From: Rickettsia endosymbiont of Gonocerus acuteangulatus | GTDB lineage: Bacteria; Pseudomonadota; Alphaproteobacteria; Rickettsiales; Rickettsiaceae | Length of the DNA: 64,000 bases | Assembly (NCBI RefSeq): GCF_964026435.1 | Contig: NZ_OZ032147.1 | Coordinates: forward strand, 434,001-498,000 | Reading direction: 5' to 3' | Shown: positions 26,884 through 47,411 of the stretch, piece by piece | Layout: the number at the start of each line of letters is the position of its first letter | Position numbering within the stretch: the first letter of the stretch is position 1 | Notes under the pieces: model-generated | Seen by the model: the letters and a program-made list of their open reading frames with translations, nothing else | What the model was told of the DNA's origin: nothing | The model's database searches: none | Position numbers and translations under genes: made by a program

Positions 26884-27008
26884 CAAAACTTACGCTATGT
26901 TTGATATAATGTCCATGAATTAAGGGATATTATGAAGTGCTTCACTATAAAACATTGCTGTGTAATAAGAGTTTTTAGCATATTTGCTATAACATAGCGT
27001 AAGTTTTG
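26884..27008. mobile_element. 125-bp miniature inverted-repeat element (MITE), copy 1
   Basis: Termini CAAAACTTACGCTATG and CATAGCGTAAGTTTTG are identical to those of the IS4/IS701-like elements. The 90-odd bp interior (with gctgtgtaataagag) is not derived from the transposase gene. Orientation is opposite to the copies at 41419 and 46932. The flanks are an IS30 fragment and an IS630 end with no matching duplication, so this copy marks a rearranged junction. Confidence 0.92.
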
Positions 27009-27045
27009 ACTATTAAATTGTCAGTATCTTAATGATTTATGCTAT
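27009..27045 (+). mobile_element. Right-end scrap of an IS630 type-1 element
   Basis: ACTATTAAATTGTCAGTATC...TTATGCTA matches the last 36 bp or so of the full-length type-1 copies. The rest of the element is absent and the MITE abuts it on the left. Confidence 0.85.
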
Positions 27046-27451
27046 ACTTCCTGGATTTAAAATTTCGACATCTTTATTTGCTGTTCCTCCATGGCATGCC
27101 CAAATATGAATATATAAAGGATTTTGAGGGGAAAGGTTTTGTAATTGCTGTAAAAAATCTTTTGTTTTAATTTTTTTATTTTCTAAATTTAGAGTATGCT
27201 CTTCTCCTAGTCTACGACCATGTGCACAAATATCAATTCTGGTATTGGGGCTTATTCGTAGATTATGTTTATTTAGTAACTCCTCTACATCTGTTATTTT
27301 TAATAGGGTTCTTTCCATCTCCTATCACCAAACAATTTTCTTGATCATATATCTCTAAAATTTTAGGATTAGGTCTCATATCAAGCCCTACTATAAAAAG
27401 TGCTTTTAGCTCTCTAGGTTCTGCTTTTTCACTAATTATAGCTTTAGACAT
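27046..27451 (-). pseudogene. Broken gene resembling a caspase-fold (C80/CHAT-like) peptidase
   Basis: Two overlapping frames: MSKAIISEKAEPRELKALFI... (start 27451) and, after a one-base shift near 27310, ERTLLKITDVEELL... down to the IS630 scrap at 27045. The second frame has IDICAHGRRLG (a candidate catalytic His on a strand end) and, 40 or so residues later, YIHIWACHGG (a candidate catalytic Cys), the order and spacing of His/Cys dyads in caspase-fold peptidases. The 3' end is cut by the IS debris. The family call is a motif-based inference; function unproven. Confidence 0.45.
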
Positions 27452-27703
27452 ATTTTTAATAATATTTAATTCTTATTAATTAATAAGAACATATTTTATT
27501 AAAAAAATATAAGTTAATTGGTAAAAATTAGTTTAAAAAGCGGTATTGTTGTAATAAAAAAGTTGCAATTAATGTGTCGATTAAAACCATTATCATTTTA
27601 TGAAAGCTCTACAAATATTTTTATTCATAGTAGTAAATTAATTTACTTCTTATATTTTTAGTAGTAATTATACTATATATAAAATATAAAAAGGATATTA
27701 ATT

Positions 27704-28082
27704 ATGTTAAAGAATGACACATATAAAGAAAACTTAAATGCAAATATTAGGGATTCGTTATTACAAGATATTAGAGAAGTTATAGAATATAAAAAGAATG
27801 ATATTACTTATGGTTTACTTACAGGTAGTTTTGGTATTCACAACTATAGAATGCAAGACATAAATAGTTTTATATTTGATGAAATAGCAAGAAAATATGG
27901 GCTTAATAATAAATATGAATTTAAGAAAGGTATTTCTTTTATAAAAGAAAATGCTCACTTCATATGCTCCGTTAATCGATCACGACAAAACTAAATTTAG
28001 CAATCTTGTCCATGAAGATTGTTATCAGGAACTAACAGAGATTATAGGTATGACGCCTGAGGAATATCTCAATTCACTTTAG
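27704..28082 (+). pseudogene. Hypothetical protein, frameshifted
   Basis: Starts MLKNDTYKENLNANIRDSLL after an AAAAGGA ribosome-binding site. The first frame stops at 27994. From about 27955 another frame continues YAPLIDHDKTKFSNLVHEDC to TAG at 28080-28082, which looks like the true C-terminus, so one indel near 27955 probably broke a protein of about 125 residues. No family recognised. It overlaps the convergent MFS gene by 14 bases. Confidence 0.6.
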
Positions 28083-29379
28083 GCTTAACACACCATAAAG
28101 CTACTAGTGATATCATGGTTATATAAATGGCAATCGATATACTGCTATTTGTGATATGCCAGAGCATTAAACATGTGGAGGGGGTAAGCCGTCCGATTAG
28201 TGAAGAGCCGATGCTGCTGCCGATACCAACTAGCATATATTTATCGGCAGTTTTAAAGAGATCATTTAGCCAGCAATTTAATGGGGCAATAAAGCTAACT
28301 CCAGCTAATATAATAAATATACGAACAAAATTAACATACCATATTGATGAGTTGTTTAAAAACCACCATAGAGGAATTAAGCTTAAAATCATTAATATAA
28401 GAGTGCCTCTTAATATTTTAAGATAATGAAATTTTTTGGTTAGATTCCCGATTACTGGAATCATAATCATATCAAAAATCAGAAATTCCGTATTAAACTT
28501 CATCATTGTTTCTAAGGAAATATCAGTAATTAGAGGAATAAAGCTGTTCATAAAGACGAATGGCACTATATAAGTCATATATGAAAAGCCTACGGCAAAG
28601 CTGATTCGTATGATATTTAGTTTATTATTCCATATTGTGAGTAGGTCATGATGTATTGTCATTCCCGCAAAAGCGGGAATCCAGGAAAAAAATTTGTATT
28701 TTTTAATTACTGGATTCCTGCCTACGCGGGAATGACATAAAGGCGTGCGGGAATGACATAAAGAAGTAGTAGATGACAAAGGTGAGGAACTCTTCCTTAA
28801 AAAATAACCGACAAGTGCAGTAAGCCCACCAAATATAAAGCATACCCGCCAGTAACCGTTATAATCAGTATTTAAAACTATAGTACTGATATAAGATGCG
28901 AAGATAATTCCAAACATGGTAGAGGTATTATAAAGGTAAGAAGCTTTAAAGGTTTTTTTTTCTTCTTTATTCTCTAAAATAAATAACTTAGCAATAGCAC
29001 ATTCTCCTTCAGAATATATACCCTGCATAGTCCTAATTGCGACTAATAACAGCGGTGCAAGCCACCCTATTTGGGTATGTGAGGGTATTAAGCCTATTAA
29101 AGCAGTGGTTAAAGCAACGCCGATTAAAGAGTGTGATAATGCAAAAACTCCACCATATTTTTTAGCAATTACTCCAAAAAAGTAAGAACCTATAGGACGA
29201 GTAAATAGGGAAGTAGCAAGAACGCTATAAGTTAAAATTAATGCTACTATTTTATCGTGATTCGGAAAGAAAATGCCGGCAAGCAGTGGAGTAAGAAATC
29301 CATAAAGTGCAGTATCAAAATGGTCTAACGCATTACCGATTAATATTGAGATGTCTCTTTTGTTTAAGGAGTTTTTCAT
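28069..29379 (-). CDS. MFS transporter (ProP-like) containing a translated RPE
   Basis: 436 residues with about 12 hydrophobic segments, of the sugar/metabolite:H+ symporter type of the major facilitator superfamily. The N-terminal DISILIGNALDHFDTALYGF and loop FTRPIGSYFFGVIAKKYGG are characteristic. Between TM6 and TM7, residues about 204-243 (SRTPLCHSRVGRNPV...WIPAFAGMT) are the translation of an RPE, in frame. This lies in the cytoplasmic central loop, where an insertion is most tolerable. The stop of the upstream gene (29376) overlaps this start by four bases, suggesting a two-gene operon. Confidence 0.88.
   Translation of the reverse strand: MKNSLNKRDISILIGNALDHFDTALYGFLTPLLAGIFFPNHDKIVALILTYSVLATSLFTRPIGSYFFGVIAKKYGGVFALSHSLIGVALTTALIGLIPSHTQIGWLAPLLLVAIRTMQGIYSEGECAIAKLFILENKEEKKTFKASYLYNTSTMFGIIFASYISTIVLNTDYNGYWRVCFIFGGLTALVGYFLRKSSSPLSSTTSLCHSRTPLCHSRVGRNPVIKKYKFFSWIPAFAGMTIHHDLLTIWNNKLNIIRISFAVGFSYMTYIVPFVFMNSFIPLITDISLETMMKFNTEFLIFDMIMIPVIGNLTKKFHYLKILRGTLILMILSLIPLWWFLNNSSIWYVNFVRIFIILAGVSFIAPLNCWLNDLFKTADKYMLVGIGSSIGSSLIGRLTPSTCLMLWHITNSSISIAIYITMISLVALWCVKPKVN
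28657..28760. repeat. RPE inside a coding sequence
   Basis: Arms TGTCATTCCCGCAAAAGCGGGA and TGGATTCCTGCCTACGCGGG...AATGACA, plus a short duplicated tail (GCGGGAATGACATAAAG, 28745-28760). Its length keeps the transporter reading frame open. Confidence 0.9.
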
Positions 29380-30533
29380 TTTGTAGGCATATTATATAAT
29401 CTATAGCTAATAAGATACCATAGATGATAAATGACGAAGCTACCAACTACAGCAGAAATAGAAAATAAGAAGTCACTTCCATTCACTGTGCCGTAAGGAA
29501 CGCTAGAAGATAAAGCACCAGCATAAACGCCTATGCTGCACATAGAAAAGTATGAAAATAGTGCTGTTCTAAATTCATATCCTTTAAATTTATCAATCAA
29601 TATTAAAATATTGCAGATAAAAATTGATCCTAAGCAACTTCCGATCAATATAACATATAATATATTTAGGTTTTTATTCCAACCATGTAGTGATAATAAA
29701 ATAAAGCATATGAGTAGGATTAAAGTTAATATGAAATTAGCTAAATATTTATTTGTTTTATTTATTAGATAACAAATAGGTATTATGGAAAATAATATTC
29801 CTGTAAAAATATATTTCAATATTAGGGATAGATTAATTAATGCTAATTCTTTTTTTAACGCAAATGCTTCATAATACCAAAATATATCTAAGGTAACATA
29901 AGATACTACAAATCCCGTTAATATCTGTAATTCCACATTTTTTATTAAAGATGAAAATTTTGAATCCAATTTCAAAGTGTGGATAGTAGGATTAGAATGT
30001 AGAAACTCAGTTAAAATATTGATGTAGTATAATAAAGCACAAATTATTATGGTATTATTTGTTGGGTTAATGAATTGACTTATTAAGTTTATTATTAAAT
30101 TGCCGCATGCCCATAATAATATTATACAAGCTAAGAAAAAATATTTTTTCTCACCGGAAATTTCAATAATCTCTAGTACTGTTGAGGTGAAATATGCAAA
30201 TATTCCTGCGTTGATTATGATAAAGTTAATTTTAATGAAAGTAAAATCATCTAGCAAAACTAAGTTAATGGTACAAAGAATGAGTAATATTAAACTAGTA
30301 ATAATAATTACTTTATTACTTAATTTATTGATTAGCTGCGTTAAAGCGAAAGCAGCAATTATTGAGCCTAGGAATTTAGTTTGATTGATATTATTTATCT
30401 CTTCTCCGCCTAAACCTTTATTTATAAGTAAGAAAATTTTAGAAGTATAAAAATTTGTAGCATTAATACAAGAAAAAATAAATATTCCCAAAAGTGAAAA
30501 TAAAATTGTCTTATAATCGTTTTTTAAAGTCAT
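29376..30533 (-). CDS. MFS-like membrane transporter
   Basis: 385 residues, very hydrophobic, with about 11-12 predicted membrane segments and a short central hydrophilic stretch (HSNPTIHTLKLDSKFSSL). Overall it resembles a major-facilitator protein, but no substrate-specific motif is recognised. It is the first gene of an apparent pair with the ProP-like transporter (ATGA-type overlap). Confidence 0.7.
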   Translation of the reverse strand: MTLKNDYKTILFSLLGIFIFSCINATNFYTSKIFLLINKGLGGEEINNINQTKFLGSIIAAFALTQLINKLSNKVIIITSLILLILCTINLVLLDDFTFIKINFIIINAGIFAYFTSTVLEIIEISGEKKYFFLACIILLWACGNLIINLISQFINPTNNTIIICALLYYINILTEFLHSNPTIHTLKLDSKFSSLIKNVELQILTGFVVSYVTLDIFWYYEAFALKKELALINLSLILKYIFTGILFSIIPICYLINKTNKYLANFILTLILLICFILLSLHGWNKNLNILYVILIGSCLGSIFICNILILIDKFKGYEFRTALFSYFSMCSIGVYAGALSSSVPYGTVNGSDFLFSISAVVGSFVIYHLWYLISYRLYNMPTK

Positions 30534-30944
30534 AAATTAAGTGTTTGCTAAACATACATACATGGTATATAACTCATAGTTAATAAGTTTACTGTATCAA
30601 GATACGATACAAAGGTTAAAACTATTTTAGATATACAGAGTTTAGTATAAATAGTTATTCTGAATAATTAAAGAGATTTGTAATTTCATTAAGATATTTA
30701 TAGTTAATATTTTAGTATGATGATCTTATATAGCATTAGATATATAAAATAAATATCTAATGTAGTTTTTATATATGATAAATAATTTAATGTAAGAAAA
30801 ATAATAATATAATTCGCTACTTAATTTACTTATGGTTATGCACAGAATCCAAAGAAAGATAGGTACTTATTTAAATAGATTAATACAAGATATGCTTAAG
30901 GTGTTATATTAATTATTTATTCTTCGAGTTAGTGAGCGAGATTA
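30534..30944. other. Intergenic region between the MFS pair and rne
   Basis: 411 bp, AT-rich, separating divergent units; it should hold both promoters and the rne leader. I see no RPE, gene or strong hairpin. Confidence 0.5.
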
Positions 30945-33023
30945 ATGAATAAAAAGATAATAATTGATGCTAATTTCTCAAATGAAACAAGAGTAGTTTT
31001 ATTGGGACAAAGCAATAATATAGAAGATATTGAATTTCAAACAACAAGAAAACAACAAAATAAAGGTAATATTTATTTAGCAAAAGTAACGAGAATAGAA
31101 CCCTCTTTGCAAGCTGTGTTCATAGAATATGGTATGGATAAAAGCGGCTTTTTGCCTTTTAGCGAAATACATCCTAATTATTACAATTTACCTGCGTCAG
31201 AGAAAAATTTTCCAATTAACGCATTTCCTGAGATAGTACCACCTAAAATTGTCATTGATGATGAAGATGAAGCACCAGTAGTTACTTCATATGACCCATT
31301 AATTGATGGGGAGGAAATCGATCTAAAAGCAATAGAGGAGTTAGTAGAGAGTAAATTTCAGTCAGAGCTTAATTTAGAAGCAGCAGATGATATTGAAATT
31401 ATTCAAAGCGATAAGGAAGAAAATGTTCCGCAATATAAGCAATATAAAGTACAGGACGTAATAAGAAAAAACCAAATATTACTAGTTCAAGTTACTAAAG
31501 AGGAGCGTGGAAATAAATGTGCAGCTTTCACTACTTATGTATCTTTAGCAGGTAAATATTGTGTTCTAATGCCTAATAAAGCAGCACAAAATGGTATATC
31601 TCGTAAAATATCAAATGGTGATGAAAGAAAAAGGCTTAAGAATATTTTAAATAAGGTAGTAAACGGCGATAAGAGTCCTTATAGCGTAATTATCAGGACA
31701 GCGGGTAGAGGTTGTAGTACTTTGGACCTGAAAAAAGATTATAGCTATTTATCAAGGTTATGGAATAAAATCCGTAAAAGTACTGTTAAATTTCCAGCTC
31801 CGTGCTTTATTCACGAAGAAGACAGCATAATACGTAAAACTATACGTGATATGTGTGATCATAATGTCAAAGAGGTCATAATTCATGGGCAAGAAGCATA
31901 TGAAGATGCAGCAAAATTTATGCAAGATTTGTTACCTTCAGAGATGACAAAACTTAAAGAGCATAAAAGTAAAACTCCTATATTTACTAAGTTTCAAGTA
32001 GAAGAGCAGTTAATTAAGCTATACCAGCCTGTGGTAACTTTACCTTCAGGAGGATATATCGTTATTAATCCAACTGAAGCTCTTATTTCTATAGATGTGA
32101 ATTCCGGCAGGTCAACTTCTGAAAAAAATATTGAAGAAACAGCCTTAAAGACTAATTTAGAAGCAGTAAAAGAAATAGCAAGGCAAGTTAAACTTAGAGA
32201 TTTATCAGGTTTAATAGTCGTTGATTTCATTGATATGGATGAGACAAAAAATCGTAAAATTATCGAGAGATCTTTTAAAGAATTCTTAAGTCGTGATCGG
32301 GCACGTATACAAACCGGTAATATTAGTCAGTTTGGATTGCTTGAATTTTCAAGGCAAAGATTACGTTCTTCTTTCCTAGAAACTAACTCCTCAATTTGTT
32401 CTCATTGTAATGGTAAAGGTGTCGTTAGAGCCGATGAGTCGAATGCTATGCTAATCTTGCGTACTATTGAAAATGAAATTTTCGAAGATAAAATTGATAT
32501 AATAAATGTTTTTGCTAATGTTTCTTCGGTGATTTATCTACTTAATAATAAACGCCAAGAGATAAAATTTATTGAAGAGAAATATAATATAAGGCTCAAT
32601 TTTTATTCTGATCCTAACGCTACATCTGATAGTTATTCAATCGAGAAAGTAAAATTATTAAAGAAAAATAATAATAACCTCAATGCTGGTAAGCCGGTGA
32701 TTCAAAATCATAGTGCTGATTATACCGAAGAAGAGCCTAAAAAAGAGCAGCTACGTAAAAATAAGCATAAATGGAAAACAGGCAATAATAATGTCGTCAG
32801 TGAAGAAAAGAAAAAAGTGCCTGAAATAAAAGAGGTAAAAGATCAGGTAGTAAGTGTTGTAAAGGAAGAAGTAGAGATTACGGATGATGGTGTAGTAGTA
32901 GAAGAAAAACCACTACCAAAAAAGACAAAACGCAGATATCGTAATAAAAAATCGAATAAGAACCGCCCTGTGGCTAATAAAGAGAGTTCTGTGGCAGAGA
33001 ATAGCGAGGGTGGTGAGGGGTAA
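30945..33023 (+). CDS. rne: Ribonuclease E/G
   Basis: Endoribonuclease for mRNA turnover and rRNA processing. 692 residues. The N-terminal S1 domain is split (GNIYLAKVTRIEPSLQAVFIEYG ... KNQILLVQVTKEERGNKC) by an acidic insert of about 90 residues. The catalytic DNase I-like region contains ISIDVNSGRS and LIVVDFIDM (metal-binding Asp). The zinc link is CSHC. The C-terminal 140 residues are charged, Lys/Glu-rich and lack a known fold, resembling a degradosome scaffold. It is shorter than E. coli RNase E (1061 aa). Confidence 0.95.
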   Translation: MNKKIIIDANFSNETRVVLLGQSNNIEDIEFQTTRKQQNKGNIYLAKVTRIEPSLQAVFIEYGMDKSGFLPFSEIHPNYYNLPASEKNFPINAFPEIVPPKIVIDDEDEAPVVTSYDPLIDGEEIDLKAIEELVESKFQSELNLEAADDIEIIQSDKEENVPQYKQYKVQDVIRKNQILLVQVTKEERGNKCAAFTTYVSLAGKYCVLMPNKAAQNGISRKISNGDERKRLKNILNKVVNGDKSPYSVIIRTAGRGCSTLDLKKDYSYLSRLWNKIRKSTVKFPAPCFIHEEDSIIRKTIRDMCDHNVKEVIIHGQEAYEDAAKFMQDLLPSEMTKLKEHKSKTPIFTKFQVEEQLIKLYQPVVTLPSGGYIVINPTEALISIDVNSGRSTSEKNIEETALKTNLEAVKEIARQVKLRDLSGLIVVDFIDMDETKNRKIIERSFKEFLSRDRARIQTGNISQFGLLEFSRQRLRSSFLETNSSICSHCNGKGVVRADESNAMLILRTIENEIFEDKIDIINVFANVSSVIYLLNNKRQEIKFIEEKYNIRLNFYSDPNATSDSYSIEKVKLLKKNNNNLNAGKPVIQNHSADYTEEEPKKEQLRKNKHKWKTGNNNVVSEEKKKVPEIKEVKDQVVSVVKEEVEITDDGVVVEEKPLPKKTKRRYRNKKSNKNRPVANKESSVAENSEGGEG

Positions 33024-33066
33024 TATACGACATAGTGAGGAAAAACCAGCGTTGTTGCATTGCTCA

Positions 33067-33188
33067 TATGTCATTCCTGCGAAAGCAGGAATCCAGAACA
33101 AAATAAACATAAAAGCAGTGAGTTTTAAAAATTAAAAGCTCGATTTCTCTCGCTTTATGCTGGATTCCCGCCTATGCTGGAATGACAT
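33067..33188. repeat. RPE downstream of rne
   Basis: Arms ATGTCATTCCTGCGAAAGCAGG and CTGGATTCCCGCCTATGC...GGAATGACAT with the AAATCGAGC-type middle. A weaker partial copy (cacggggtgata...ggaatgaca) follows at about 33248-33310. No gene is seen between rne and 33365. Confidence 0.83.
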
Positions 33189-33364
33189 ATACTATACTTG
33201 AAAAAAATATAACATTTTTTTAAAAATGTTCGGTACTATAGAATAAATCACGGGGTGATAGAAGAAAAATTGATCCACGCAACAATGCCCAAGCCTCACG
33301 TAGGAATGACATCGGAGCTATGCGACAACATCTTTAACCATTTGCAATAACTTACCATATAAAA

Positions 33365-33921
33365 ATGATAAAAATCGTATTTGTACCCGGTAATGGTAAT
33401 TCTACAACAAAGGATAATTGGTTTCCAAGTGTTAAAAAAGAATTAGAACTGCATGACATAGAAGTAGTTGCAGCAACATTTCCAGATCCTGATTTAGCTC
33501 GAGAATTTTATTGGATTCCTTTCCTACATGATGAAATAAGGTTGATGATCAAACTATTCTAGTTGGACACTCTTCAGGAGCAATAGCGGCAATGCGTTTT
33601 GCAGAACAATATCCTATTTTAGGTTCCGTTTTGGTTGGTGCATATCATACTGATTTAGATATGGAGAAAGAAAAATTATCAGGTTATTTTTCTCGCCCAT
33701 GGAATTGGGAAAAAATACGTTCTAATCAAAAATATATAAGTCTATTTGCTTCTGAAGATGATCCCTGGATCCCTATTGACTATGCTAGATATCTATATAA
33801 ACACTTAAATTGCGAATATCATGAATATAAAAATCAAGGGCATTTTGGTGGAGATTATACCAAAAAAGAATTTCCTGAACTCACATTAAGTATTTTAAAT
33901 TATCTAAATTTAACAAAGTAA
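33365..33921 (+). pseudogene. RBBP9/YdeN-like serine hydrolase, frameshifted
   Basis: Frame one (MIKIVFVPGNGNSTTKDNWF) ends at 33562. A second frame resumes VDDQTILVGHSSGAIAAMRFA, with the nucleophile elbow GHSSG, and ends KYISLFASEDDPWIP (Asp) ... KNQGHFGGDY (His). All parts of an alpha/beta-hydrolase of about 185 residues are present, but one base has been lost near 33535 (cctacatgatgaaataagg). Probably inactive. ctaA follows closely. Confidence 0.83.
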
Positions 33922-33934
33922 TAAAACTATATAA

Positions 33935-34945
33935 GTGCAGAAAAATTTAACTAGATGGCTATTTACTTGTTGTATAATGGTCGTGGCGATGATTATTGTA
34001 GGTGGGATAACAAGGCTTACTGATTCCGGTTTGTCGATAGTTGAGTGGCGTCCAGTAACGGGTATTTTGCCTCCCTTTAGTTATGATGCTTGGCAAGCTG
34101 AATTTGCTAAGTATAAAGCGTTTCCGGAATATAATGCAGTTAATTACGGGATGACTTTATCAGAGTTTAAATTCATCTATTTATTAGAGTTTGTGCATCG
34201 CTTGCTTGGTAGGGCTACAGGTTTAATATATGTATTACCTTTAATGTATTTTTATTTTAAAGGGATCATAAAAAATCGTGATATATTATCTTATATAATT
34301 GTTTTGCTGTTATTCTGCATGCAAGGCTTTATGGGATGGTATATGGTTAAAAGCGGTTTAGTTAACTACCCATCTGTTAGCCATTTTCGTCTAGCTTTTC
34401 ATCTAATTATTGCCGTAATTATTTATCATTTGCTTTTTTACAAACTAGTCAAAAATTGTTGTGATATCTTATTAATTCCATCACAAACAAATTTAAAATT
34501 ACTGCTAATATTTTCTGTTGCTGCTATTGCTATAATATATGTGCAGATTTTTTTTGGTGCTTTAGTTGCTGGGCTTGATGCAGGTTTAGTATATAATAGC
34601 TTCCTGTTAATGGGGGGCAGTTTTATCCCTATAGAAATAAAAGATAATTTCTTTAGTTTTAAAAATTGGTATGATCCAGTTTTTGTCCAATTTATGCATC
34701 GCCTAGGTGCTTATAGCTTATCTATAATCATCATAGCTTTAATCATTTCTTTATTAAAAATTAAACATCCAAAATTAAATAAAATAGCATTTTATTTGGC
34801 TATTGCTTTATTAATACAATTATCCACCGGCATAATTACTCTTTTATACTATGTTCCTATAATAGCAGCTTCTATGCATCAATTTTTTGCTATAGTGCTT
34901 TTATCAGTAATAATTTACTGCTATTCTTTAATAAAAAATTCTTAA
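33935..34945 (+). CDS. ctaA: Heme A synthase (CtaA/COX15)
   Basis: Converts heme O to heme A for cytochrome c oxidase. 336 residues with about eight membrane segments. Heme-ligand His positions are visible in LLEFVHRLLGR, SHFRLAFHL, QFMHRLGAY and ASMHQFFA, and the first helix contains VGGITRLTDSGLSIVEW, the alphaproteobacterial type-2 signature. The start is GTG at 33935. Its stop TAA overlaps the next gene's ATG by one base. Confidence 0.95.
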   Translation: MQKNLTRWLFTCCIMVVAMIIVGGITRLTDSGLSIVEWRPVTGILPPFSYDAWQAEFAKYKAFPEYNAVNYGMTLSEFKFIYLLEFVHRLLGRATGLIYVLPLMYFYFKGIIKNRDILSYIIVLLLFCMQGFMGWYMVKSGLVNYPSVSHFRLAFHLIIAVIIYHLLFYKLVKNCCDILLIPSQTNLKLLLIFSVAAIAIIYVQIFFGALVAGLDAGLVYNSFLLMGGSFIPIEIKDNFFSFKNWYDPVFVQFMHRLGAYSLSIIIIALIISLLKIKHPKLNKIAFYLAIALLIQLSTGIITLLYYVPIIAASMHQFFAIVLLSVIIYCYSLIKNS

Positions 34946-35850
34946 TGATCATTACTGTAAACAGCCCTATCGCCTCAAGGTTAGATAAATATTTAAGATG
35001 TCTATATCCTCTTTTGACTCAAGGAGTGATAGAGAAAGCGTTGCGTCAAAAGCAAATAATCGTAAATTCTAAAAAAGCAGAAGCGAGTTTAAGAGTAGTG
35101 GAGGGTGATGAAATTTTTATTCATGATAAGTTTAATTTACCTATAATTCAACCAACTGAACTAGTTTTTACTGATGCTGAAATTATATTAGCAAAGAAAA
35201 TTACCACTGAATATTTAATATATGAGGATGATAATATAATAGCGATTAATAAACCCGCAGGGCTTGCAACGCAAGGTGGTAATAAAATTAATTTATCGGT
35301 TGATTCTGCGTTAAAATATTTAAACAGTCAAGGAGCTGATTTTAAGTTAGTACATAGACTTGATAAAGAAACAAGCGGTTTGCTTTTAATTGCTAAGAAT
35401 TATATAAGTAGCGTAAAACTTCATGATGCTTTTAAAGAAAAATTGGTTGAAAAGACCTATCTCGCTGTAACCTATGGAAAACCAATTAAAGATCAGGGAG
35501 AGGTCAAGACTAACATAGAAAAAAGTAAAGGGAGTATACCTAAAATTACTGATATTTCAACGAATAATGGTAAACTTGCCATTACTTATTATAAATTACT
35601 TAAATCACTTACCAATAACTTGTTTTTGGTTGAATTTATTCCAATTACGGGTAGAATGCATCAATTAAGATTGCATGCTAAATTACTAGGTTGTCCAATA
35701 TTTGGTGATAATAAATATGGCAATGACAAATTAATGCCGTATAGTAAATATATGTTTTTGCATGCTAGTAATATAGTATTGTCTAAAAAAATTTTTGGCA
35801 AAGAGGTTAATTTAGAAGCAAAATTGCCTTCTTATTTTAATAGAGTTTAA
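34945..35850 (+). CDS. rluC: RluC/RluD-family 23S rRNA pseudouridine synthase
   Basis: 301 residues: an N-terminal S4-like RNA-binding domain (SRLDKYLRCLYPLLTQG), then the RluA-type catalytic domain with VHRLDKETSGLLLIAK, where the Asp is the catalytic residue, and the late motif PITGRMHQLRLHAKLLGCPIFGD. RluC rather than RluD is the more probable name in Rickettsia, but the sequence alone does not decide. Overlaps the ctaA stop by one base. Confidence 0.88.
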   Translation: MIITVNSPIASRLDKYLRCLYPLLTQGVIEKALRQKQIIVNSKKAEASLRVVEGDEIFIHDKFNLPIIQPTELVFTDAEIILAKKITTEYLIYEDDNIIAINKPAGLATQGGNKINLSVDSALKYLNSQGADFKLVHRLDKETSGLLLIAKNYISSVKLHDAFKEKLVEKTYLAVTYGKPIKDQGEVKTNIEKSKGSIPKITDISTNNGKLAITYYKLLKSLTNNLFLVEFIPITGRMHQLRLHAKLLGCPIFGDNKYGNDKLMPYSKYMFLHASNIVLSKKIFGKEVNLEAKLPSYFNRV

Positions 35851-36506
35851 GTTTTAGTTTGTATAGAGTTAAAGTTATTATGTTCCGTAGTTATATTTTA
35901 TTATTGGTTCTTTTAATAGTTAATTGTGTTGATAGTTTTGCAGATATTCAGCAAAGAATTAGTGAAGCAGAAAAAGAATATATAAGCAATAGATTTGTAA
36001 ATGCTGTTTTTATGTTTGCCGATGATTATAAACAACTACTAACAGGAGCTAAAGGCATTTTTGCTTTAAATGGTGAACAGTTAAAAGCAAGTGAAATGAT
36101 GCCTATTGCTTCTGCTACGAAACCCATAACTGCTGCAGGAATTTTAAGGCTGCAAGAGCAAAAATTATTAAATGTCAATGATAAGATATATAAATATATT
36201 GATTTGGAAATGTGGCAAGGTAAAGTACCTGATTGGGCATATAAAATATCGATTCATAATTTATTAACTCATAGTAGTGGTATTACTGAATATTTTGGTT
36301 TTGTAAAACTAGATTTAAATATGACTAGAAAAGATGCACGTAAAAAAATATTACAATATGTTGTATCTAAGCCTTTAGAAGTACCTATAGGGAAAAAGTT
36401 TAAATATAGTAATACTAATTTTGTTATACTTGGTATGATTATTGAAAAAGTAACTAAAAAAGATTTATGTAATTTTTTTCAAGATGAATTTTTTAGACCA
36501 TTAAAT

Positions 36507-38168: not shown

Positions 38169-38174
38169 TGTCCC

Positions 38175-38271
38175 GTCATTGCGAGGAGAAACTATCAGTT
38201 TCGACGAAGCAATCTCAGGATGCTTTATGAGATTGCCTCCCCCCTCTGCTACGCATCTCCTCGCAATGACG
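38175..38271. repeat. RPE between xthA and pdhA
   Basis: Arms GTCATTGCGAGGAGAAAC and CATCTCCTCGCAATGACG, with the GCAATCTCAGG...ATGAGATTGC inner pair. Confidence 0.82.
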
Positions 38272-38294
38272 TTTAAGATTATAAGGAGTAATGA

Positions 38295-39275
38295 GTGGAT
38301 ATTAAATTAGAAAAATATAAACCAGTAAAAGAAGAATACATAAAAAGCTTCAAAGATATGTTGTTGCTTAGGCGTTTTGAAGAAAAATGCGGGCAGTTAT
38401 ATGGTATGGGTGAAATAGGCGGTTTTTGTCATTTATATATTGGACAGGAAGCAGTAATTTCTGCTGTAGATATGGTTAAGCAAAAAAAAGATAGTATGGT
38501 TACCAGCTATCGTGATCATGCTCATATTATTTTAGCAGGTACAGAGCCTAAATATGTGCTTGCGGAGCTTATGGGGCGTGCTACAGGCTGTTCAAAAGGT
38601 AAGGGTGGCTCGATGCATTTGTTTGGCGTGCCGAATAAATTTTATGGTGGACATGGTATTGTGGGAGCTCAAGTGCCAATAGGTACAGGGCTTGCTTTTG
38701 CTGAGAAATATAATGGCACGAACAATATTTGCTTTACTTTTTTAGGGGATGGAGCTGTTAATCAAGGTCAAGTATATGAAGCCTTTAACATGGCTGCCTT
38801 ATGGAGCTTACCGGTAGTCTATATTATCGAAAATAATGAATATTCTATGGGTACTTCAGTTGCTCGCTCAACCTTTATGCGTGATCTTTATAAAAAAGGT
38901 GAATCGTTTGGGATCAAAGGGTTTCAGCTAAATGGCATGGATTTTGAGGAGATGTATAATGGTGCTAAACAAGCAGCGGAATATGTTAGAGAAAATAGTA
39001 TGCCGCTAATATTAGAAGTAAAAACCTATCGCTATCGTGGGCATTCAATGTCCGATCCTGCGAAATATCGTAGTAAAGAAGAAGTAGAAACGTATAAAGA
39101 ACGTGATCCTATTACTGAGATACGCAAGATAATATTAAAAAATAATTATGCAAGCGAAGCTGATTTAAAAGAAATAGAACAATCAGTTAAAGAGGTTATT
39201 AAAGAGGCGGTAGAGTTTTCAGAAAATTCCCCACTGCCTAATGAGGAAGAGCTTTATACTAATATATATGTTTAG
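38295..39275 (+). CDS. pdhA: Pyruvate dehydrogenase E1 component, alpha subunit
   Basis: With PdhB forms the thiamine-diphosphate E1 enzyme that decarboxylates pyruvate. 326 residues. The TPP motif is GDGAVNQGQVYEAFN ... ENNEYSMGT, and the phosphorylation-loop-like region is YRYRGHSMSDPAKYR. The start codon is GTG at 38295, eight bases after the AAGGAG ribosome-binding site. pdhB follows after an RPE-filled gap. Confidence 0.96.
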   Translation: MDIKLEKYKPVKEEYIKSFKDMLLLRRFEEKCGQLYGMGEIGGFCHLYIGQEAVISAVDMVKQKKDSMVTSYRDHAHIILAGTEPKYVLAELMGRATGCSKGKGGSMHLFGVPNKFYGGHGIVGAQVPIGTGLAFAEKYNGTNNICFTFLGDGAVNQGQVYEAFNMAALWSLPVVYIIENNEYSMGTSVARSTFMRDLYKKGESFGIKGFQLNGMDFEEMYNGAKQAAEYVRENSMPLILEVKTYRYRGHSMSDPAKYRSKEEVETYKERDPITEIRKIILKNNYASEADLKEIEQSVKEVIKEAVEFSENSPLPNEEELYTNIYV

Positions 39276-39303
39276 GATGTGCGCGTTTTACTTGTATTAC
39301 TGG

Positions 39304-39409
39304 GTCATCCCGTGGCTTGTCCACGGGATCCAGCATAAAGCGAGATGAGTCGAGCTTTTTATATTTGTATTTTTTATTACTGGATCTAGTTCCTAAGCCA
39401 CGGGATGAC
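39304..39409. repeat. RPE between pdhA and pdhB
   Basis: Arms GTCATCCCGTGGCTTGTCCACG and CTAAGCCACGGGATGACAT around the AAAGCGAGAT...GAGCTTTTTA core. It lies within the presumed pdhAB transcript. Confidence 0.85.
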
Positions 39410-39451
39410 ATCAATGCTAAATATAAAGAATTTAATTAAATAAAAAGAAAG

Positions 39452-40429
39452 ATGCAAATAACTGTACGGGAAGCATTGCGTGATGCGATGCAAGAAGAGA
39501 TGATAAGAGATGACAAAGTTTTTGTCATGGGTGAAGAAGTCGCTGAGTATCAAGGGGCTTATAAAGTAACACAAGGATTGCTTGAGCAGTTTGGTTCTAA
39601 AAGAGTAATCGATACACCAATAACGGAATATGGTTTTGCTGGGCTTGCCGTCGGGGCAGCCTTTGCAGGACTTCGTCCGATCGTTGAGTTTATGACCTTT
39701 AACTTTGCTATGCAAGCGATGGATCATATAGTTAACTCGGCTGCTAAAACTCATTACATGTCAGGTGGTCAGGTCAGATGCCCAATAGTATTTAGAGGTC
39801 CAAACGGAGCAGCAAGTAGAGTAGCTGCTCAACACAGTCAAAACTATGCAGCTTTGTATGCTCATATACCTGGGCTGAAAGTAGTAGCCCCATATAGTGC
39901 TGAAGATCATAAAGGGCTGATGATTACAGCCATTAGAGACGATAATCCGGTTATTTTCTTAGAAAATGAGATTTTATATGGTTACAGTTTCAATATTTCT
40001 GAAAATATTGAGCCTATTCCGTTCGGTAAGGCAAAAATCTTAAAAGAGGGCGATAGTGTTACTATAGTGACATTCTCGATTCAGGTAAAACTTGCATTAG
40101 ATGCGGCAAATATTTTACAAAATGATAATATTAATTGTGAGGTTATAGATTTACGCACTATCAAACCGCTTGATATAGATACTATAATAGAGTCGGTAAA
40201 GAAAACCGGTCGTTTAGTTGTAGTTGAAGAAGGATGGTTTTTTGCCGGTGTTGGTGCAACTATCGCAGCTATCGTGATGAAAGAAGCATTTGATTATTTA
40301 GATGCACCAATAGAGATTGTCAGCGGTAAAGATGTACCTCTTCCTTATGCTGTGAATCTCGAAAAACTAGCACTACCAAGCGAAAACGACGTAATAGAAG
40401 CCGTTAAAAAAGCTTGTTATATTAAGTAG
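39452..40429 (+). CDS. pdhB: Pyruvate dehydrogenase E1 component, beta subunit
   Basis: 325 residues of the transketolase-like beta subunit. Motifs: [37 protein letters not shown] and a C-terminal transketolase_C domain with [10 protein letters not shown]. It is adjacent to pdhA in the same strand. Its 3' end overlaps the 3' end of a convergent hypothetical fragment by eight bases. Confidence 0.97.
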
Positions 40430-40762
40430 ATTTACTACCGATTAATTCCACTTCGTCTATAATAGGATTGTCAGGTACATTATTTGTATTAGAAAACGCA
40501 AGAAATAAATTATCTAGCTCATCATATGAGGTAGTTGTTGTTTTATTATTTGCAGGGTTAAGATTTTTATCTAATTTATTATTTGCAATAGATGAATACA
40601 AAATGTTAGTACTATCTTCAGAATTAATTATAGTTTTATGTTTCTTTGAATTAATTTCTGGTTCTGTATTTTGTTTACGCTTGCGTGCAAGAGGTTCTAG
40701 GTAATTAGCTTTAGAAGCAGTTGGGTCTATATGGCTTGTAAGGAGCGGGGCTATGCGAGGTA
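40422..40762 (-). pseudogene. Hypothetical protein, C-terminal fragment cut by IS630
   Basis: The minus-strand frame is open from the IS630 boundary to TAA at 40422, about 113 residues: APLLTSHIDPTASKANYLEP, a basic patch (LARKRKQN), then a polar, Asn/Thr/Ser-rich tail ending [13 protein letters not shown]. No family is recognised. The N-terminal part is missing because a type-2 IS630 sits there. Confidence 0.55.
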
Positions 40763-41418
40763 TAGCTTAATGCGATAAGGTAGTGATTTTTTAAGAGCAT
40801 AGTAAACAGCATCAAAAAAGTGCTCAAAATTAGAAATAGTTTTTCTTATTTCATTCTTGATTTTAAACCAGTAATGCTCAATAGGATTTAAGTCAGGAGA
40901 GTAAGTTGGTAAAAATAAAATACTGCAACCAACAGATTCAATTAACGTTTTCACTTTTGTACTTTTATGAAAATTAATATTATCCATTACTACTATCTGA
41001 CCAGCCTTTAATTCCTTGATCAATATCTCTTGTACATAAGTTTCAAAAATGTCCTTATTACATGTCCCATCAAATATTATTGGGGCAATAATATCTTTGA
41101 CACACAGCCCAGCAATCATACTAATCCGTGATTTATGTTGATAGACCTTTTCACCATAACATCTTTGACCGATAATGCTCCACCCGTGTTCTCTACAGCT
41201 ATTATCTTCTATCCCAGACTCATCGATAAATACTAAATCTTGTTTATCTATAGTTTTTAGTTTCAATATAAACTCATTCCTTAGACCAATATCCCTTTTG
41301 GGATGAAGAAAAGTTTTTTTTATAACTATAACCTAATTTATTAAGCAATCTTGATATCGTACTTGCAGATACTTTTTGACTCCAGTTATTAGCTAGCTCC
41401 ATGGTGGTTTTATCAAAA

Positions 41419-41543
41419 CAAAACTTACGCTATGTTATAGCAAATATGCTAAAAACTCTTATTACACAGCAATGTTTTATAGTGAAGCACTTCATAATAT
41501 CCCTTAATTCATGGGCATTATATCAAACATAGCGTAAGTTTTG
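41419..41543. mobile_element. 125-bp MITE, copy 2
   Basis: Termini CAAAACTTACGCTATG / CATAGCGTAAGTTTTG, flanked by a direct repeat AAAA (41415-41418 and 41544-41547). The intact IS630 type-2 sequence has a single TATCAAAATTTAA here, confirming transposition with a 4-bp duplication. Confidence 0.94.
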
Positions 41544-41571
41544 AAAATTTAATTCTATAAATTTTTTAAAT

Positions 41572-42096
41572 CTCTTTTGGGTATATTCCCCGCCGCTTGC
41601 GGCGTAATATGGCGGAATGAGCAAATATATACATAAAAGTCATAATGTTACGGTACTGCTGTATCACATGGTATTTCCAGCAAAATATCGCCGAGCAGTG
41701 TTTGACGTATCAGTTGATCAAGTATTACGAGAAATATGTTTAGAGATAGAAAAGAGATATCAAATAAAATTTTTAGAAATAGGGGTTGATGAAGATCATG
41801 TCCATTTTTTGGTACAATCTGTACCAACCTATAGCGTAACAAAAATAGTAACAACAATTAAAAGTGTTACAGCTCGTCAAATATTTAGACAGTGTCCACA
41901 GGTAAAGAAACAATTATGGGGTGGAGAATTTTGGACTGATGGATATTTTACGAGTACGGTAGGTAAGCATGGAAATGAGAATATGATAGGAAAATACGTA
42001 AAAAACCAAGGCAAGGAATATCAGAAACTGCATGAGGATCATCAGCTAGCTTTCTTCTAAAATACCCCGCTGCTTGCGGCGGGGATTACTTTTATT
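41572..42096 (+). mobile_element. IS200/IS605-family insertion sequence, copy 3 (525 bp)
   Basis: The 5' flank is TTTTTTAAAT and the right flank CCCTCTATG. The uninterrupted type-2 IS630 reads TTTTTTAAATCCCTCTATG at this point, so there is no duplication or loss. Confidence 0.95.
41617..42060 (+). CDS. tnpA: IS200/IS605-family Y1 transposase TnpA
   Basis: Identical 147-residue protein to the other three copies. HVH 61-63, Tyr127. Confidence 0.95.
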   Translation: MSKYIHKSHNVTVLLYHMVFPAKYRRAVFDVSVDQVLREICLEIEKRYQIKFLEIGVDEDHVHFLVQSVPTYSVTKIVTTIKSVTARQIFRQCPQVKKQLWGGEFWTDGYFTSTVGKHGNENMIGKYVKNQGKEYQKLHEDHQLAFF

Positions 42097-42964
42097 CCCT
42101 CTATGTCTCTTATTATTCTACGATGTCCTGTATGATAACCACTTTTTGCTTTGACATCCCCAGTTTGTTTCTTTAATTTTTTCCACTCTATTATAGTCTT
42201 CCTACTAATAGAGTATATCTCTGAAGTCTCTTTTATTGTTTTGAAAATGCAAGGACTAAGTAGAACAAAACCTATAAATTTTCTGCCCAAATTTCATTGG
42301 GGGTTTTATAACCAAAAATCTTTCTTGGCATGTTATTTAAAATCTCAGCAACATTGTCAAGACCTCTTTGTGTAACGGTAGTAATATCTGTATTTTTAGG
42401 TAAAATTCTATGAATCATAGAATTCATTTTTTCCACTAATGCTTTTTGTCTAGGGCGGTATGGATCACAAAAGAAAGTTTGAAACCCAGATAGTCTATAG
42501 GCAACATGCCCCACAAACTCTTTGCCATTATCCATAGTAATAGTCTTTCTCACACTATTTGGAAGAGTTTTTATCTTTCTTAAAAAACCATTGGTAACTG
42601 TTGTAGCTCTCTTGGAGTTATTCAGCACTAAAATAATCTTTTGACTCTTTATTATCCACCAGTGCACCAATATTCATACTTTGATTACCTTTATAAAATG
42701 TAAGATCTGCCTCAAAATTCCCTACTTCTACCTTTTTCGTAGCTATTGCATCACACTGATGTATTGAGATCCTTTGTGGTATAATGATCCTTTGACGCCT
42801 CTTCCCTCTTTCTTGCCTTTTATATCTTTTAGAAGGTAAATAGCTATATAACTTTAATTTAGCTGCTACTGCAGAAGTGTAAACAAATCTATATATACTT
42901 TCTGTACTGATACACAAAGCTGTATTTTTGTCTAGTTTTAACTTTCCGGCTATAGCATAAATCA

Positions 42965-43525
42965 TTAAGATACTGACAATTTAATAGTATTAAAAACAGC
43001 ATCATAAAATGTTTCAAAATCTCCTACAACTTTCCTAATTTCATTTTTTATCTTAAACCAGTAATGCTCTATAGGATTTAAATCAGGAGAGTAAGTTGGT
43101 AAATACAATATGGTACAACCAACGGATTCAATGAACTCTTTAACTTTAGAATTTTTATGAAAATTAATGTTATCCATAATAACGGTTTGCCCAGGTTGTA
43201 ATTCTGTAATTAATACATCCCTAATATAAGTTTTAAAGACCTCTGTATTACAATTACCTTCAAATATTACAGGAGCAATAAGATTACCATTACAAAGACC
43301 AGCTATCATACTTATTCTAAATTTATGTTGATACACCTTTTCTCCATAACACCTTTGTCCTATAATGCTCCATCCATACTCTTTGCAAGCATTATCCTCT
43401 ATTCCAGATTCATCAAGATATACTAATTTGTCTTTTGTGATGGTTTGTATCTTTGCTATAAATTCATTTCTTAATTTAATATCTCTTTTCGGATGAAAAT
43501 GAGTTTTGTTTATAGCTATAGCCAA
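42965..43525 (-). CDS. IS630 type-1 transposase, OrfB
   Basis: 186 residues with the complete catalytic core (LDESG, MDNINFHK, NPIEHYW), in the frame shifted relative to OrfA; overlaps OrfA by 50 bases. Confidence 0.85.
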   Translation of the reverse strand: MAIAINKTHFHPKRDIKLRNEFIAKIQTITKDKLVYLDESGIEDNACKEYGWSIIGQRCYGEKVYQHKFRISMIAGLCNGNLIAPVIFEGNCNTEVFKTYIRDVLITELQPGQTVIMDNINFHKNSKVKEFIESVGCTILYLPTYSPDLNPIEHYWFKIKNEIRKVVGDFETFYDAVFNTIKLSVS

Positions 43526-43835
43526 GTTTTCTGATTTGTCTTAAAATAGTTACAGATGCAATATTACCCCATTGCTTTGCTAACTCCTTTGATGTTTTAT
43601 TCATATTAGCTTTAAAAAATTCTTTAAAAGATTCTGAATCTTTTATCTTATGACTATGTCCTTTCTGATAACCAGTTGCTGCTTCTAAAGTACCTTGCTT
43701 ATCTTTTAATTTTTTCCATTTATATATAGTATCACGACTTACATTAAATAATTTACTTACCTTACTTATTCGTATCCCTGCTTCTACAGCTTTTATAACT
43801 CTTAGTCTTAGTTCTATTGCATATGCTCGTGCCAT
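43476..43835 (-). CDS. IS630 type-1 transposase, OrfA
   Basis: 119 residues, identical to the OrfA at 22626, with the HTH SKLFNVSRDTIYKWKK and the same AAACAAAA junction. Confidence 0.85.
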   Translation of the reverse strand: MARAYAIELRLRVIKAVEAGIRISKVSKLFNVSRDTIYKWKKLKDKQGTLEAATGYQKGHSHKIKDSESFKEFFKANMNKTSKELAKQWGNIASVTILRQIRKLGYSYKQNSFSSEKRY

Positions 43836-44074
43836 ATCTCTTTACATGCTTGTTAATATTTGCTTACTATAACATGATACTCTCGCTCTGTCAGTACCTT
43901 AATGACTTATGCTATATAGCATCCGGCGACCATTTCTTGCGAATCATAGCATTTTTAATATAATCTAACAACATAGGGTTCTTTTCTATTTTTAATAACT
44001 CTTGCTGATACATCCTGTTTTCATATTTTTCCTGAGCAACACAAGGCATATACTTATCTTTTACCTTATTTCTT

Positions 44075-44583
44075 CAAAACTTACGCTATGTTTGGTTCTA
44101 AATATCGTAAAGATGGAGAACGCAGCTGTTGTTGCATATAGTCATCTAAAAGCCCTAACTTTATTTGGTAAACCGTTTTACCGATTGTATTTGCAGTCCT
44201 TTTGAGAAATGCCCAAACTAAAAATGCACAACTAATATGATTACGTTGAATACGCTGTTTCCTGCATTGACAACGTTCTATCCCAGTAAGTTGCTTAATT
44301 TCTCTGTGCATGCTCTCAATTACCCATCGAAAGCCACACTCATCTTGTGCAGCTTTAGAAGATTTTTGAGTTTTGTTATTGGTAACAACATACTCAACTC
44401 TGTTGGTAGGAACAGTAAATTTAAACAAATTAACATGCTTATTTTTAGCAAAGCCTTTTATATGAATCTCTACTCCATGCCTGATCTCTTCATCTGAAAA
44501 TGTCAACTCTTTTACAGCTTTATAAGGTTTAGAATCGTGTGTTTTACTAACGTTTCTATTGGCTTTAATAGGGGCATAATAAT
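44075..44583 (-). mobile_element. IS4/IS701-like element fragment, copy c
   Basis: Left terminus CAAAACTTACGCTATG at 44075, preceded by TCTT (44071-44074). It contains the C-terminal half of the transposase from YYAPIKANRNVSKTHDSKP to the stop at 44081. The rest is missing; another copy begins at 44584. Confidence 0.88.
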
Positions 44584-45689
44584 CAAAACTTACGCTATGA
44601 GTAAAAAAGTGATAAATTATTGTAAAAATAATTAAACATGTCAAAGAGGATAAAGTTGCAAGCAATACCAATTAATAGGACAGATTATTGTCAATTTTTA
44701 ATAGTTAGCCAAAAGAATTATAGTTTAACCTACTACGCTGAACATGCAAAGAAATGTAGTCATGATGTTATTAATAGATTTTTAAGGAATGAAAAATATA
44801 CACCTTCTTTGTTATGGGAACACATCAAGAATGATGTTATTTTTTCATCTAATGGATATACAATATTTGATGATACGGTTTTAAATAAAAGGAATACGAA
44901 GCAAATAGAAATTGCAAGATCGCAGTACAGTGGAGCTACAGGTAGAGTTACTAAAGGTATAGGAGTAGTGAGTCTGGTATATTATAACCCTGATATTAAT
45001 AAGTTTTGGGTAATAGATTATCGAATTTTTGCACCTGATCATGATGGAGCAACAAAACTAGAACACCTATTAAACATGTTAAATAATGCTGTTTATAGCA
45101 AGAAGATTCCTTTTCACAGTACTTTTTGACACATGGTATTCTACACACAAAATTATGCAACATGTTGACTCTCTGGGGAAATATTATTATGCCCCTATTA
45201 AAGCCAATAGAAACGTTAGTAAAACGCACGATTCTAAACCTTATAAAACTGTAAAAGAGTTGACATTTTCAGATGAAGAGATCAGGTATGGAGAGAGATT
45301 CATATAAAAGGCTTTGCTAAAAATAAGCATGTTAATTTGTTTAAATTTACTGTTCCTACCAACAGAGTTGAGTATGTTGTTACCAATAACAAAACTCAAA
45401 AATCTTCTAAAGCTGCACAAGATGAGTGTGGCTTTCGATGGGTAATTGAGAGCATGCACAGAGAAATTAAGCAACTTACTGGGATAGAACGTTGTCAATG
45501 CAGGAAACAGCGTATTCAACGTAATCATATTAGTTGGGCATTTTTAGTTTGGGCATTTCTCAAAAGGACTGCAAATACAATCGGTAAAACGGTTTACCAA
45601 ATAAAGTTAGGGCTTTTAGATGACTATATGCAACAACAGCTGCGTTCTCCATCTTTACGATATTTAGAACCAAACATAGCGTAAGTTTT
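44584..45689 (+). mobile_element. IS4/IS701-like element, copy d (opposite orientation)
   Basis: The 5' terminus CAAAACTTACGCTATGAG at 44584 and 3' terminus ...CATAGCGTAAGTTTT at 45689, lacking only the last G, where it joins an IS630 fragment. Flanks do not match, so the copy sits at a recombination junction. Confidence 0.87.
44638..45684 (+). pseudogene. IS4/IS701-like transposase, frameshifted
   Basis: Starts like the intact copies (MSKRIKLQAIPINRTDYCQF) but loses two bases near 45115 (CCTTTTCACAGT against CCTTTTCAAACAGT), ending that frame at 45129. A second indel lies near 45290 (TGGAGAGAG against TGGAGTAGAG). All three frames together cover the full transposase. Confidence 0.87.
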
Positions 45690-46287
45690 ACTATTTTAAG
45701 ACAAATCAGAAAACTTGGCTATAGCTATAAACAAAACTCATTTTCATCCGAAAAGAGATATTAAATTAAGAAATGAATTTATAGCAAAGATACAAACCAT
45801 CACAAAAGACAAATTAGTATATCTTGATGAATCTGGAATAGAGGATAATGCTTGCAAAGAGTATGGATGGAGCATTATAGGACAAAGGTGTTATGGAGAA
45901 AAGGTGTATCAACATAAATTTAGAATAAGTATGATAGCTGGTCTTTGTAATGGTAATCTTATTGCTCCTGTAATATTTGAAGGTAATTGTAATACAGAGG
46001 TCTTTAAAACTTATATTAGGGATGTATTAATTACAGAATTACAACCTGGGCAAACCGTTATTATGGATAACATTAATTTTCATAAAAATTCTAAAGTTAA
46101 AGAGTTCATTGAATCCGTTGGTTGTACCATATTGTATTTACCAACTTACTCTCCTGATTTAAATCCTATAGAGCATTACTGGTTTAAGATAAAAAATGAA
46201 ATTAGGAAAGTTGTAGGAGATTTTGAAACATTTTATGATGCTGTTTTTAATACTATTAAATTGTCAGTATCTTAATGATTTATGCTA
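45690..46287 (+). mobile_element. IS630-family element type 1, 3' fragment
   Basis: Begins in mid-element (ACTATTTTAAGACAAATCAG) and runs to the right terminus ...TTATGCTA. The flanking TA (46288-46289) leads directly into virB4 sequence, so this insertion interrupted virB4. It contains a complete OrfB (45715-46275, 186 residues with LDESG, MDNINFHK, NPIEHYW), but no OrfA. Confidence 0.88.
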
Positions 46288-47411
46288 TACCTACCAAAAT
46301 GCCGCAGGCGTATTGTTTTCAAAGCAGTTAGAGTTCTTTAATTTCCTGATTTCAAATGTTTGGCAAAAAATACCAGTACTAAAAAAACCTATCTACGAGA
46401 CATTTGGAACAAATGACGTATATTTTGCCAATCAGAACGGACAAATTAACACATCAATAGGCAAGAAGTTCTTTAAAATCATTGAGATATTAGAGTTTCC
46501 AGATAGCAGCAATAGTTTAAGTATGAGTAGCTTACTAATATCTGATTGTGATTTCGTATTAACACAATCTTTCTCGTGCGTAAGCAAAAGAAAATCTTTG
46601 AGTTTCATTAACAATGTAATTAAGAAGCTCAGAGCTTCGGAAGATGACGCATTAACGCAAAGAGATGATTTAATTGATGCTAAAGACGAACTTGCTGGTA
46701 ATGAGATTTTCTTTGGCAAGTATCATTTTAGCTTAGTGGTATATGGTAATTCTTTAGAGGAAACAAAACAAAGCACAAATAAGCAGATGAGTATCTTAAG
46801 TAATTTAGGCTTTGTACCAATACTTGCTGAATTATCATTATATGGTAATTTTTTCTCGCAACTTCCTGCCGTATTTGACTACAGACCTCGTCTTTCTTCT
46901 ATGACAGGTAGACATTTTGTAGATTTTGCAACAAAACTTACGCTATGTTATAGCAAATATGCTAAAAACTCTTATTACACAGCAATGTTTTATAGTGAAG
47001 CACTTCATAATATCCCTTAATTCATGGGCATTATATCAAACATAGCGTAAGTTTTGTGCAAGTTTCCACAATTTTGAAAGTGGCAAAAGAGACCAGAATT
47101 GTTGGGGGGAGGCTCTAGCAATCCTTAAAACTCCTAATAAGCAGGCTTACTACTTAAATCTTCACGAGTCAAAACTTGGCAAAGATGAGTTTGGTGAAAA
47201 GAACAACGCAAGTACTTCAGTAATAGGCTCTACAGGTTCTGGTAAGACTATGTTACTATCCTTCTTACAAATATGCTTGCAGAAATACAACCACAAAGAG
47301 TCTTTTGACCAAAATTCAAAAAGCAAGAAACTTACTACAATCTTTTTAGACAAGGATATAGGAGCTGAGTTAAATATCAGAGCACTTGTGTTAGCAACGG
47401 AAGTAAAATGA
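46288..47411 (+). pseudogene. virB4: VirB4-type T4SS ATPase fragment, split by a MITE
   Basis: Central portion of a P-type VirB4: NAAGVLFSKQLEFFNFLI, the QSFSCVSKRKSLSFINN segment, GKYHFSLVVYG, YRPRLSSMTGRHFVDF, then, after the MITE (46932-47056), SFHNFESGKRDQNCWGEAL, YYLNLHESK and the Walker A GSTGSGKTMLLSF. The frame then ends at TGA 47409-47411. The N-terminus is cut by IS630 and the Walker B half is absent. Excising the MITE with one copy of TGCAA restores the frame (DFASFHNF). Non-functional. Confidence 0.9.
46932..47056. mobile_element. 125-bp MITE, copy 3
   Basis: Same termini and orientation as copy 2, flanked by TGCAA on both sides (46927-46931 and 47057-47061), a 5-bp duplication within virB4. 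Confidence 0.94.

Follow-up and report, generated by a model that had tools for sequence, protein, structure and literature searches.

How does a 125-bp element without a gene of its own come to lie at many places in a bacterial genome, and which enzyme moves it? This question is raised by a stretch of 64,000 nucleotides (hereafter the window) from the Rickettsia endosymbiont of Gonocerus acuteangulatus (contig NZ_OZ032147.1, positions 434,001 to 498,000), in which three such elements occur. An initial annotation of the window had read them as a miniature inverted-repeat transposable element (MITE) that is cross-mobilised by the transposase of a longer resident insertion sequence (IS). Our analysis bears this reading out. 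Judged by sequence comparison, the element is very probably a MITE mobilised in trans by a co-resident IS701-family transposase; shared ends, duplication lengths, a common target preference and a natural IS-MITE fusion in the related genome RiCimp all speak for cross-mobilisation.

Three window copies share their ends with a resident IS701-family element

The three elements are exactly where the initial annotation had placed them, measure 125 bp each and carry exact 16-bp inverted ends (CAAAACTTACGCTATG). The terminal 16 bp of the window's IS701-family IS and of the MITE are identical. With up to three mismatches allowed, this end has 16 matches in the 64-kb window, against 0.84 expected. All three copies belong to one of two subfamilies described below, subfamily A. 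Copy 1 (26884-27008, plus strand) is a one-base variant without a target duplication. Copy 2 (41419-41543, minus strand) adjoins an IS630-family transposase gene (40751-41266) and is flanked by the duplication AAAA (41415-41418 and 41544-41547); its host DNA is repeated, and the same DNA was found uninterrupted elsewhere. Copy 3 (46932-47056, minus strand) lies between two copies of the 5-bp sequence TGCAA (46927-46931 and 47057-47061) and breaks a virB4-like gene. Matched alone to the VirB4 profile, its left flank covers positions 183-393 and its right flank positions 395-429. Because the two flanks match successive stretches of the profile, the insert sits inside the virB4-like gene.

The duplications that had been reported, AAAA and TGCAA here and TGTA around the IS at 17540, are all real. 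Empty sites had been claimed for both copy 2 and copy 3, and this claim held in part. Copy 2 has seven empty sites, each with a 4-bp overlap, one of them in the window at about 22119 (22096-22140 in the flank-match search). The DNA searched by separate flanks yielded no empty site for copy 3, and it is the profile match that places the break in virB4.

The proposed helper is the IS at 48156-49265 (minus strand, 1110 bp), which has no target duplication and encodes a 349-aa transposase (48162-49211). This protein scores 343.4 bits against a cut-off of 250 with the IS701 model NF049921 of NCBIfam and contains Pfam DDE domains. The helper had been called IS4/IS701-like; the IS701 half of this label stands and the IS4 half falls. 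The helper thus belongs to the family by its transposase, while the MITE has no gene. Six of the 246 candidate transposase copies in the same genome were scored, and all of them are free of internal stops.

The MITE is about as common as its IS

The genome was searched as one contig of 1,983,518 bases. The exact 16-bp end occurs 541 times, and a reversed control pattern does not occur. A search for paired ends, as the initial annotation had suggested, finds not three MITEs but 117 with exact ends lying 80-110 bases apart (reversed control, 0). For the IS, 138 exact 5' ends were counted, so the MITE is about as common as its IS. All counts below that depend on the sequence of the element refer to the 106 of these 117 copies that were read.

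The 106 copies are 121-128 bp long and form two subfamilies whose interiors are 87% identical: A, with 78 copies of mostly 125 bp, and B, with 28 copies of mostly 126 bp. Overall, 87 of the 106 are equal to a subfamily consensus (62 in A, 25 in B), which points to a recent spread. All six frames of both A and B hold a stop, leaving the element without coding capacity.

Target duplications and empty sites indicate repeated insertion

A 4-bp target duplication flanks 86 of the 106 copies, four copies have one of 5 bp, and 16 have none. The 4-5 bp duplication originally described is therefore mainly one of 4 bp, the 5-bp form, TGCAA included, being a minority. Grouping copies that are alike in both flanks reduced the 106 copies to 94 independent sites, so the copies do not descend from one shared ancestral location, a possibility considered at the outset. 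By site, the duplication is 4 bp at 74, 5 bp at four and absent at 16; that is, 78 of 94 sites are duplicated. Random re-pairing of the flanks yielded a 4-bp match in 2.6% of cases and a 5-bp match in 0.6%. A 4-bp target duplication is typical of the IS701 family.

Each flank was also searched separately for an uninterrupted counterpart in other DNA. Such empty sites were found for 43 of the 106 copies, or 31 of the 94 independent sites, and the commonest overlap between the two flanks was again 4 bp (40 of 43 copies; 28 of 31 sites). Two of these 40 copies also gave one 8-bp overlap each. The exceptions are the copy at 1205395, which matches its own flank, and those at 773743 and 1124589, which have no duplication. 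Eight MITE copies lie inside the helper IS itself, with exact 16-base matches on both sides and a 4-bp overlap in each case.

The MITE and the IS prefer the same targets

Of the IS, 33 copies were read from one end to the other: the duplication is 4 bp long in 15 and 5 bp long in one, 14 have none and three show two matching bases. A target profile was built from 73 MITE sites only and applied to 15 IS sites. These scored +3.4 on average, against -4.0 (sd 4.3) for random positions, a mean that no random set out of 10,000 and no GC-matched set out of 5,000 attained. The fit of the IS sites to the MITE-site profile is the strongest evidence within this genome that one enzyme makes both insertions.

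The proposed mechanism is as follows. The DDE transposase of the IS701-family element would bind the 16-bp ends that the MITE shares with it, cut the MITE out and join it to an AT-rich target by a staggered cut of usually 4 and rarely 5 bp. The interior would be an evolutionarily free spacer, with the ends alone being kept. The movement was probably of the cut-and-paste type, and the transposase now present, rather than a lost one, probably did the moving.

In RiCimp the two elements are fused

The genome of RiCimp (CP084573.1; G213 in our set), a Torix-group symbiont of Culicoides impunctatus, offers a natural case of the two elements combined. All three of its transposase matches lie in IS-CTA-MITE units (L127, L128 and L129), which run in the order end, transposase, altered end, CTA, altered end, MITE, end. 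The units are exact at their outer ends and altered at the inner ones, by one change and by two. Outer 4-bp duplications (TTTC and TAGT) bound two of the units, and the third has none. Since these duplications lie around the fused units, one IS end and one MITE end have apparently been used as a pair in nature. The two solo MITEs of RiCimp are flanked by ACTA and GTAA despite one altered end. It was also noted that one G-to-T change is common to both inner ends of the units, which looks like a correction of one end by the other.

Composite arrangements are present in the window's genome as well. Element ends stand back to back within 40 bases at seven places, six of them MITE-IS and one MITE-MITE. 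A MITE followed by 11 bp and an IS recurs at 1186236-1187739 and 1615077-1616322; the two units share 235 identical bases from the MITE start, differ in their outer flanks and have no outer duplication. This recurring unit may be a second fusion or a recombination product. The MITE copy at 1615077 has one flank in common with one further copy and the other flank with another, a sign of rearrangement. An IS30-like element (26457-26861 in the window) is multicopy, and seven of its copies hold the MITE at one identical position within differing outer flanks. Similarly, seven of the 33 IS701 copies exceed the usual length by that of one or two MITEs (1235-1240 and 1368-1369 bp). Such passenger MITEs were copied together with their host element, by transposition or recombination, or arose in place.

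Relatives carry the MITE and the IS together or apart

We compared the MITE with 343 genomes of the order, scoring two candidates per genome, so that absence from a genome is weak evidence. Matches at E <= 1e-3 were obtained in 11 of the 343. They are near full length in G000, G003, G009, G220 and G223, and RiCimp matches by its end; partial matches in G014, G082, G088, G269 and G323, covering 23-75 bases of the query, were taken as chance. With the RiCimp MITE as query and up to 10 candidates scored per genome, the element was found in seven of 85 family genomes, which adds G006. At genus level, all candidates in the 22 remaining genomes were scored. The transposase has a match at E <= 1e-30 in six of the 343 genomes, including distant ones in G227 (52% identical) and G019 (33% identical, with stops). 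A close IS and the MITE occur together in G000, RiCimp and G220.

The MITEs of different genera are homologous in their interiors: none of 1000 shuffles reached the observed similarity in any of 10 comparisons. Compared with the other genus, subfamilies A and B are 94-100% identical in the ends and 56-61% identical in the interiors. At four-fold sites, the transposase genes of RiCimp and G222 are 62-63% identical to that of the window; a fragment in G220 reaches 72%, though it is broken and its tail is possibly out of frame. These values agree with an unconstrained interior and with a partnership that goes back to when the IS lineages split, with horizontal movement also possible.

Outside the window's genome, a 4-bp duplication flanks each of the six solo full-length MITEs that were checked (in RiCimp, G220 and G223), including one whose outermost bases are changed. 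Assuming a change in its first base, the G006 copy is flanked by the duplication TTTA. Two further species, G003 and G009, have the identical MITE at a common site, in a stretch of 725 bases that does not differ between them; no IS701 element was detected in either. The matching site in G004 (locus L174) is empty and has the 4-bp sequence once, as read by eye from the sequences, the other homologues being too divergent there for base-by-base alignment.

The search among plasmids gave no match to the MITE; with the transposase it gave 97 records, all below 60% identity (best 52.6%). Of a 12-kb piece of the window, plasmid records matched only about 4%, in Candidatus Megaera. A 22-base interior pattern had no match among named genomes, a set from which the source or very near genomes were possibly excluded. 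One further record concerns the IS. In Francisella noatunensis (NZ_WBSX01000121.1, L130), a very distant host, a transposase about 70% identical to the IS701 one lies beside an exact 16-bp end; a search allowing one mismatch found no second such end there. This copy may represent a horizontal transfer of the IS.

Weighing the alternatives

The identity of the 16-bp ends, together with four further shared bases (TTTG) at one end, could mean that the MITE arose from the resident IS701 element by internal deletion. The interior of subfamily A, which was the one tested, does not bear this out. Its best local alignment with the IS interior scores 20, a value matched or beaten by 258 of 300 shuffles, so the interior does not resemble the IS, in line with the unrelated interior first noted, and is not a deleted version of the transposase gene. 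It is homologous instead to the MITEs of another genus, and the junction of IS and MITE in RiCimp, made through a pair of altered inner ends, reads as a fusion. We thus regard descent by deletion as hardly credible. That the interior might serve a conserved RNA or hairpin function was considered because all eight folded strands beat every shuffle, largely via their ends, and because A and B show paired changes in one hairpin (CCC/GGG versus CCT/AGG, by eye). However, only 18 end pairs and no two-sided compensatory change are predicted from seven family members, and the interior has diverged about as much as the four-fold sites of the IS. This function was rejected on conservation and appears very unlikely. 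Least credible of all is an identity with the Rickettsia palindromic elements (RPEs), repeats that spread in frame inside genes. Such small repeats are known from this group (PMC10969869), and they have a size and a palindromic look similar to those of our element. Nevertheless, with a stop in every frame of A and B, our element cannot be carried through genes in frame, and it is further set apart from the RPE as described by its target duplications and its IS partner.

A different objection concerns the agent of spread rather than the nature of the element, namely that most of the spreading was the work of another transposase, now lost, that used identical ends, or of recombination and hitch-hiking instead of transposition of the MITE itself. 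MITEs in genomes without a detected IS would be explained in this way, as would the seven copies at one IS30-like site, the MITE-lengthened IS copies and the repeated unit of MITE, 11 bp and IS. On the other hand, the independent sites number 94, and a duplication of 4 or 5 bp is present at 78; the target preference is the same as that of the present IS; and in the RiCimp fusion an IS end is paired with a MITE end. We consider this explanation improbable and prefer mobilisation by the resident IS701-family transposase.

Several observations nevertheless weigh against mobilisation by this transposase. No movement has been observed; action in trans is inferred from the target preference and the RiCimp fusion. 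The duplication is missing from 16 of the 106 MITE copies and from 14 of the 33 IS copies, with three more IS copies showing two matching bases. Reciprocal recombination was tried as the reason for such absences, and no recombinant pair was found among the 20 MITE copies that have no 4-bp duplication (the four with 5 bp included). MITE homologues occur without a detected IS (E <= 1e-30) in G003, G009, G006 and G223. Conversely, G222 has 141 IS-type ends with at most one mismatch, the two-strand pairs listed being mostly about 1.1 kb apart, and the exact-pair pattern found no MITE in it; an amplified IS therefore need not bring the MITE with it. That pattern misses MITEs with changed ends, since it also gave 0 for RiCimp, G223 and G006, which are all MITE carriers. 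Finally, the subfamily A interior lends no support to a descent of the MITE from the resident IS.

A broader history can be offered tentatively, at somewhat less than even confidence. The MITE would be an old, independent parasite lineage of the Rickettsiaceae that diverged beside IS701 elements in at least two genera, kept its ends alone, persists in genomes where no IS is detected and was captured as the outer end of the RiCimp IS.

Other IS701-family copies in the window

Besides the proposed helper, the window holds a second IS701-family IS at 17540-18634 (minus strand, 1095 bp), flanked by TGTA (17536-17539 and 18635-18638). Its 344-aa transposase is five residues shorter, and the two length forms, 17540-18634 and 48156-49265, differ by the corresponding 15 bp in the transposase. 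A further copy at 44584-45690 (plus strand, 1107 bp) has no full-length frame, one mismatch in one end and no duplication. A lone end at 44075-44090 (plus strand) belongs to a truncated copy with a 196-aa remnant (44081-44671). Two ends 3.4 kb apart (7102-10557, minus strand), recognised by end matches, are read as an IS copy probably split by insertions.

Relation to known systems and significance

The MITE itself is new; its kind is already known, with a close published case in Cardinium. MITECca01 has 169 copies in Cardinium cOegib and is derived from ISCca4 of the IS982 family (PMC9769881). Like the present MITE, it is a high-copy element of an arthropod symbiont; its ends closely resemble the ends of an abundant IS in the same genome, and it too often disrupts other mobile elements. 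By contrast, the element described here is 125 bp long, is partnered with an IS701 element and has an interior without any sign of derivation from the IS. RPEs are small palindromic Rickettsia repeats of about the same size (PMC10969869); they have an open frame and many lie in frame within genes, whereas our MITE has stops in all frames, a target duplication and an IS partner. The MITEs of Coxiella and Acinetobacter (PMC5896051, PMC6382973) are likewise reported as non-autonomous IS-related repeats, in other hosts. For RiCimp, about 96 putative transposases are reported, and no mention of a MITE of this kind was found in the accessible sections of its genome paper (PMC9098888). At the level of titles and the beginnings of abstracts, the open-licence literature yielded no IS701-linked MITE in Rickettsia.

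Given the very similar case already published in Cardinium, no general rule is changed by these results. The present system is an unusually clean instance of apparent trans-mobilisation: copies are numerous, natural empty sites run to dozens, and helper and MITE have a common target profile. From the comparison across genera, the transposase seems to need the ends and to ignore the interior. Extra interest comes from a MITE lineage of two genera with a drifting interior and held ends, and from a MITE absorbed as the end of its helper: the RiCimp fusion shows how a non-autonomous element can be taken up into the element that moves it. For the repeat-rich genomes of the Rickettsiaceae, the MITE is an added cause of gene breakage.

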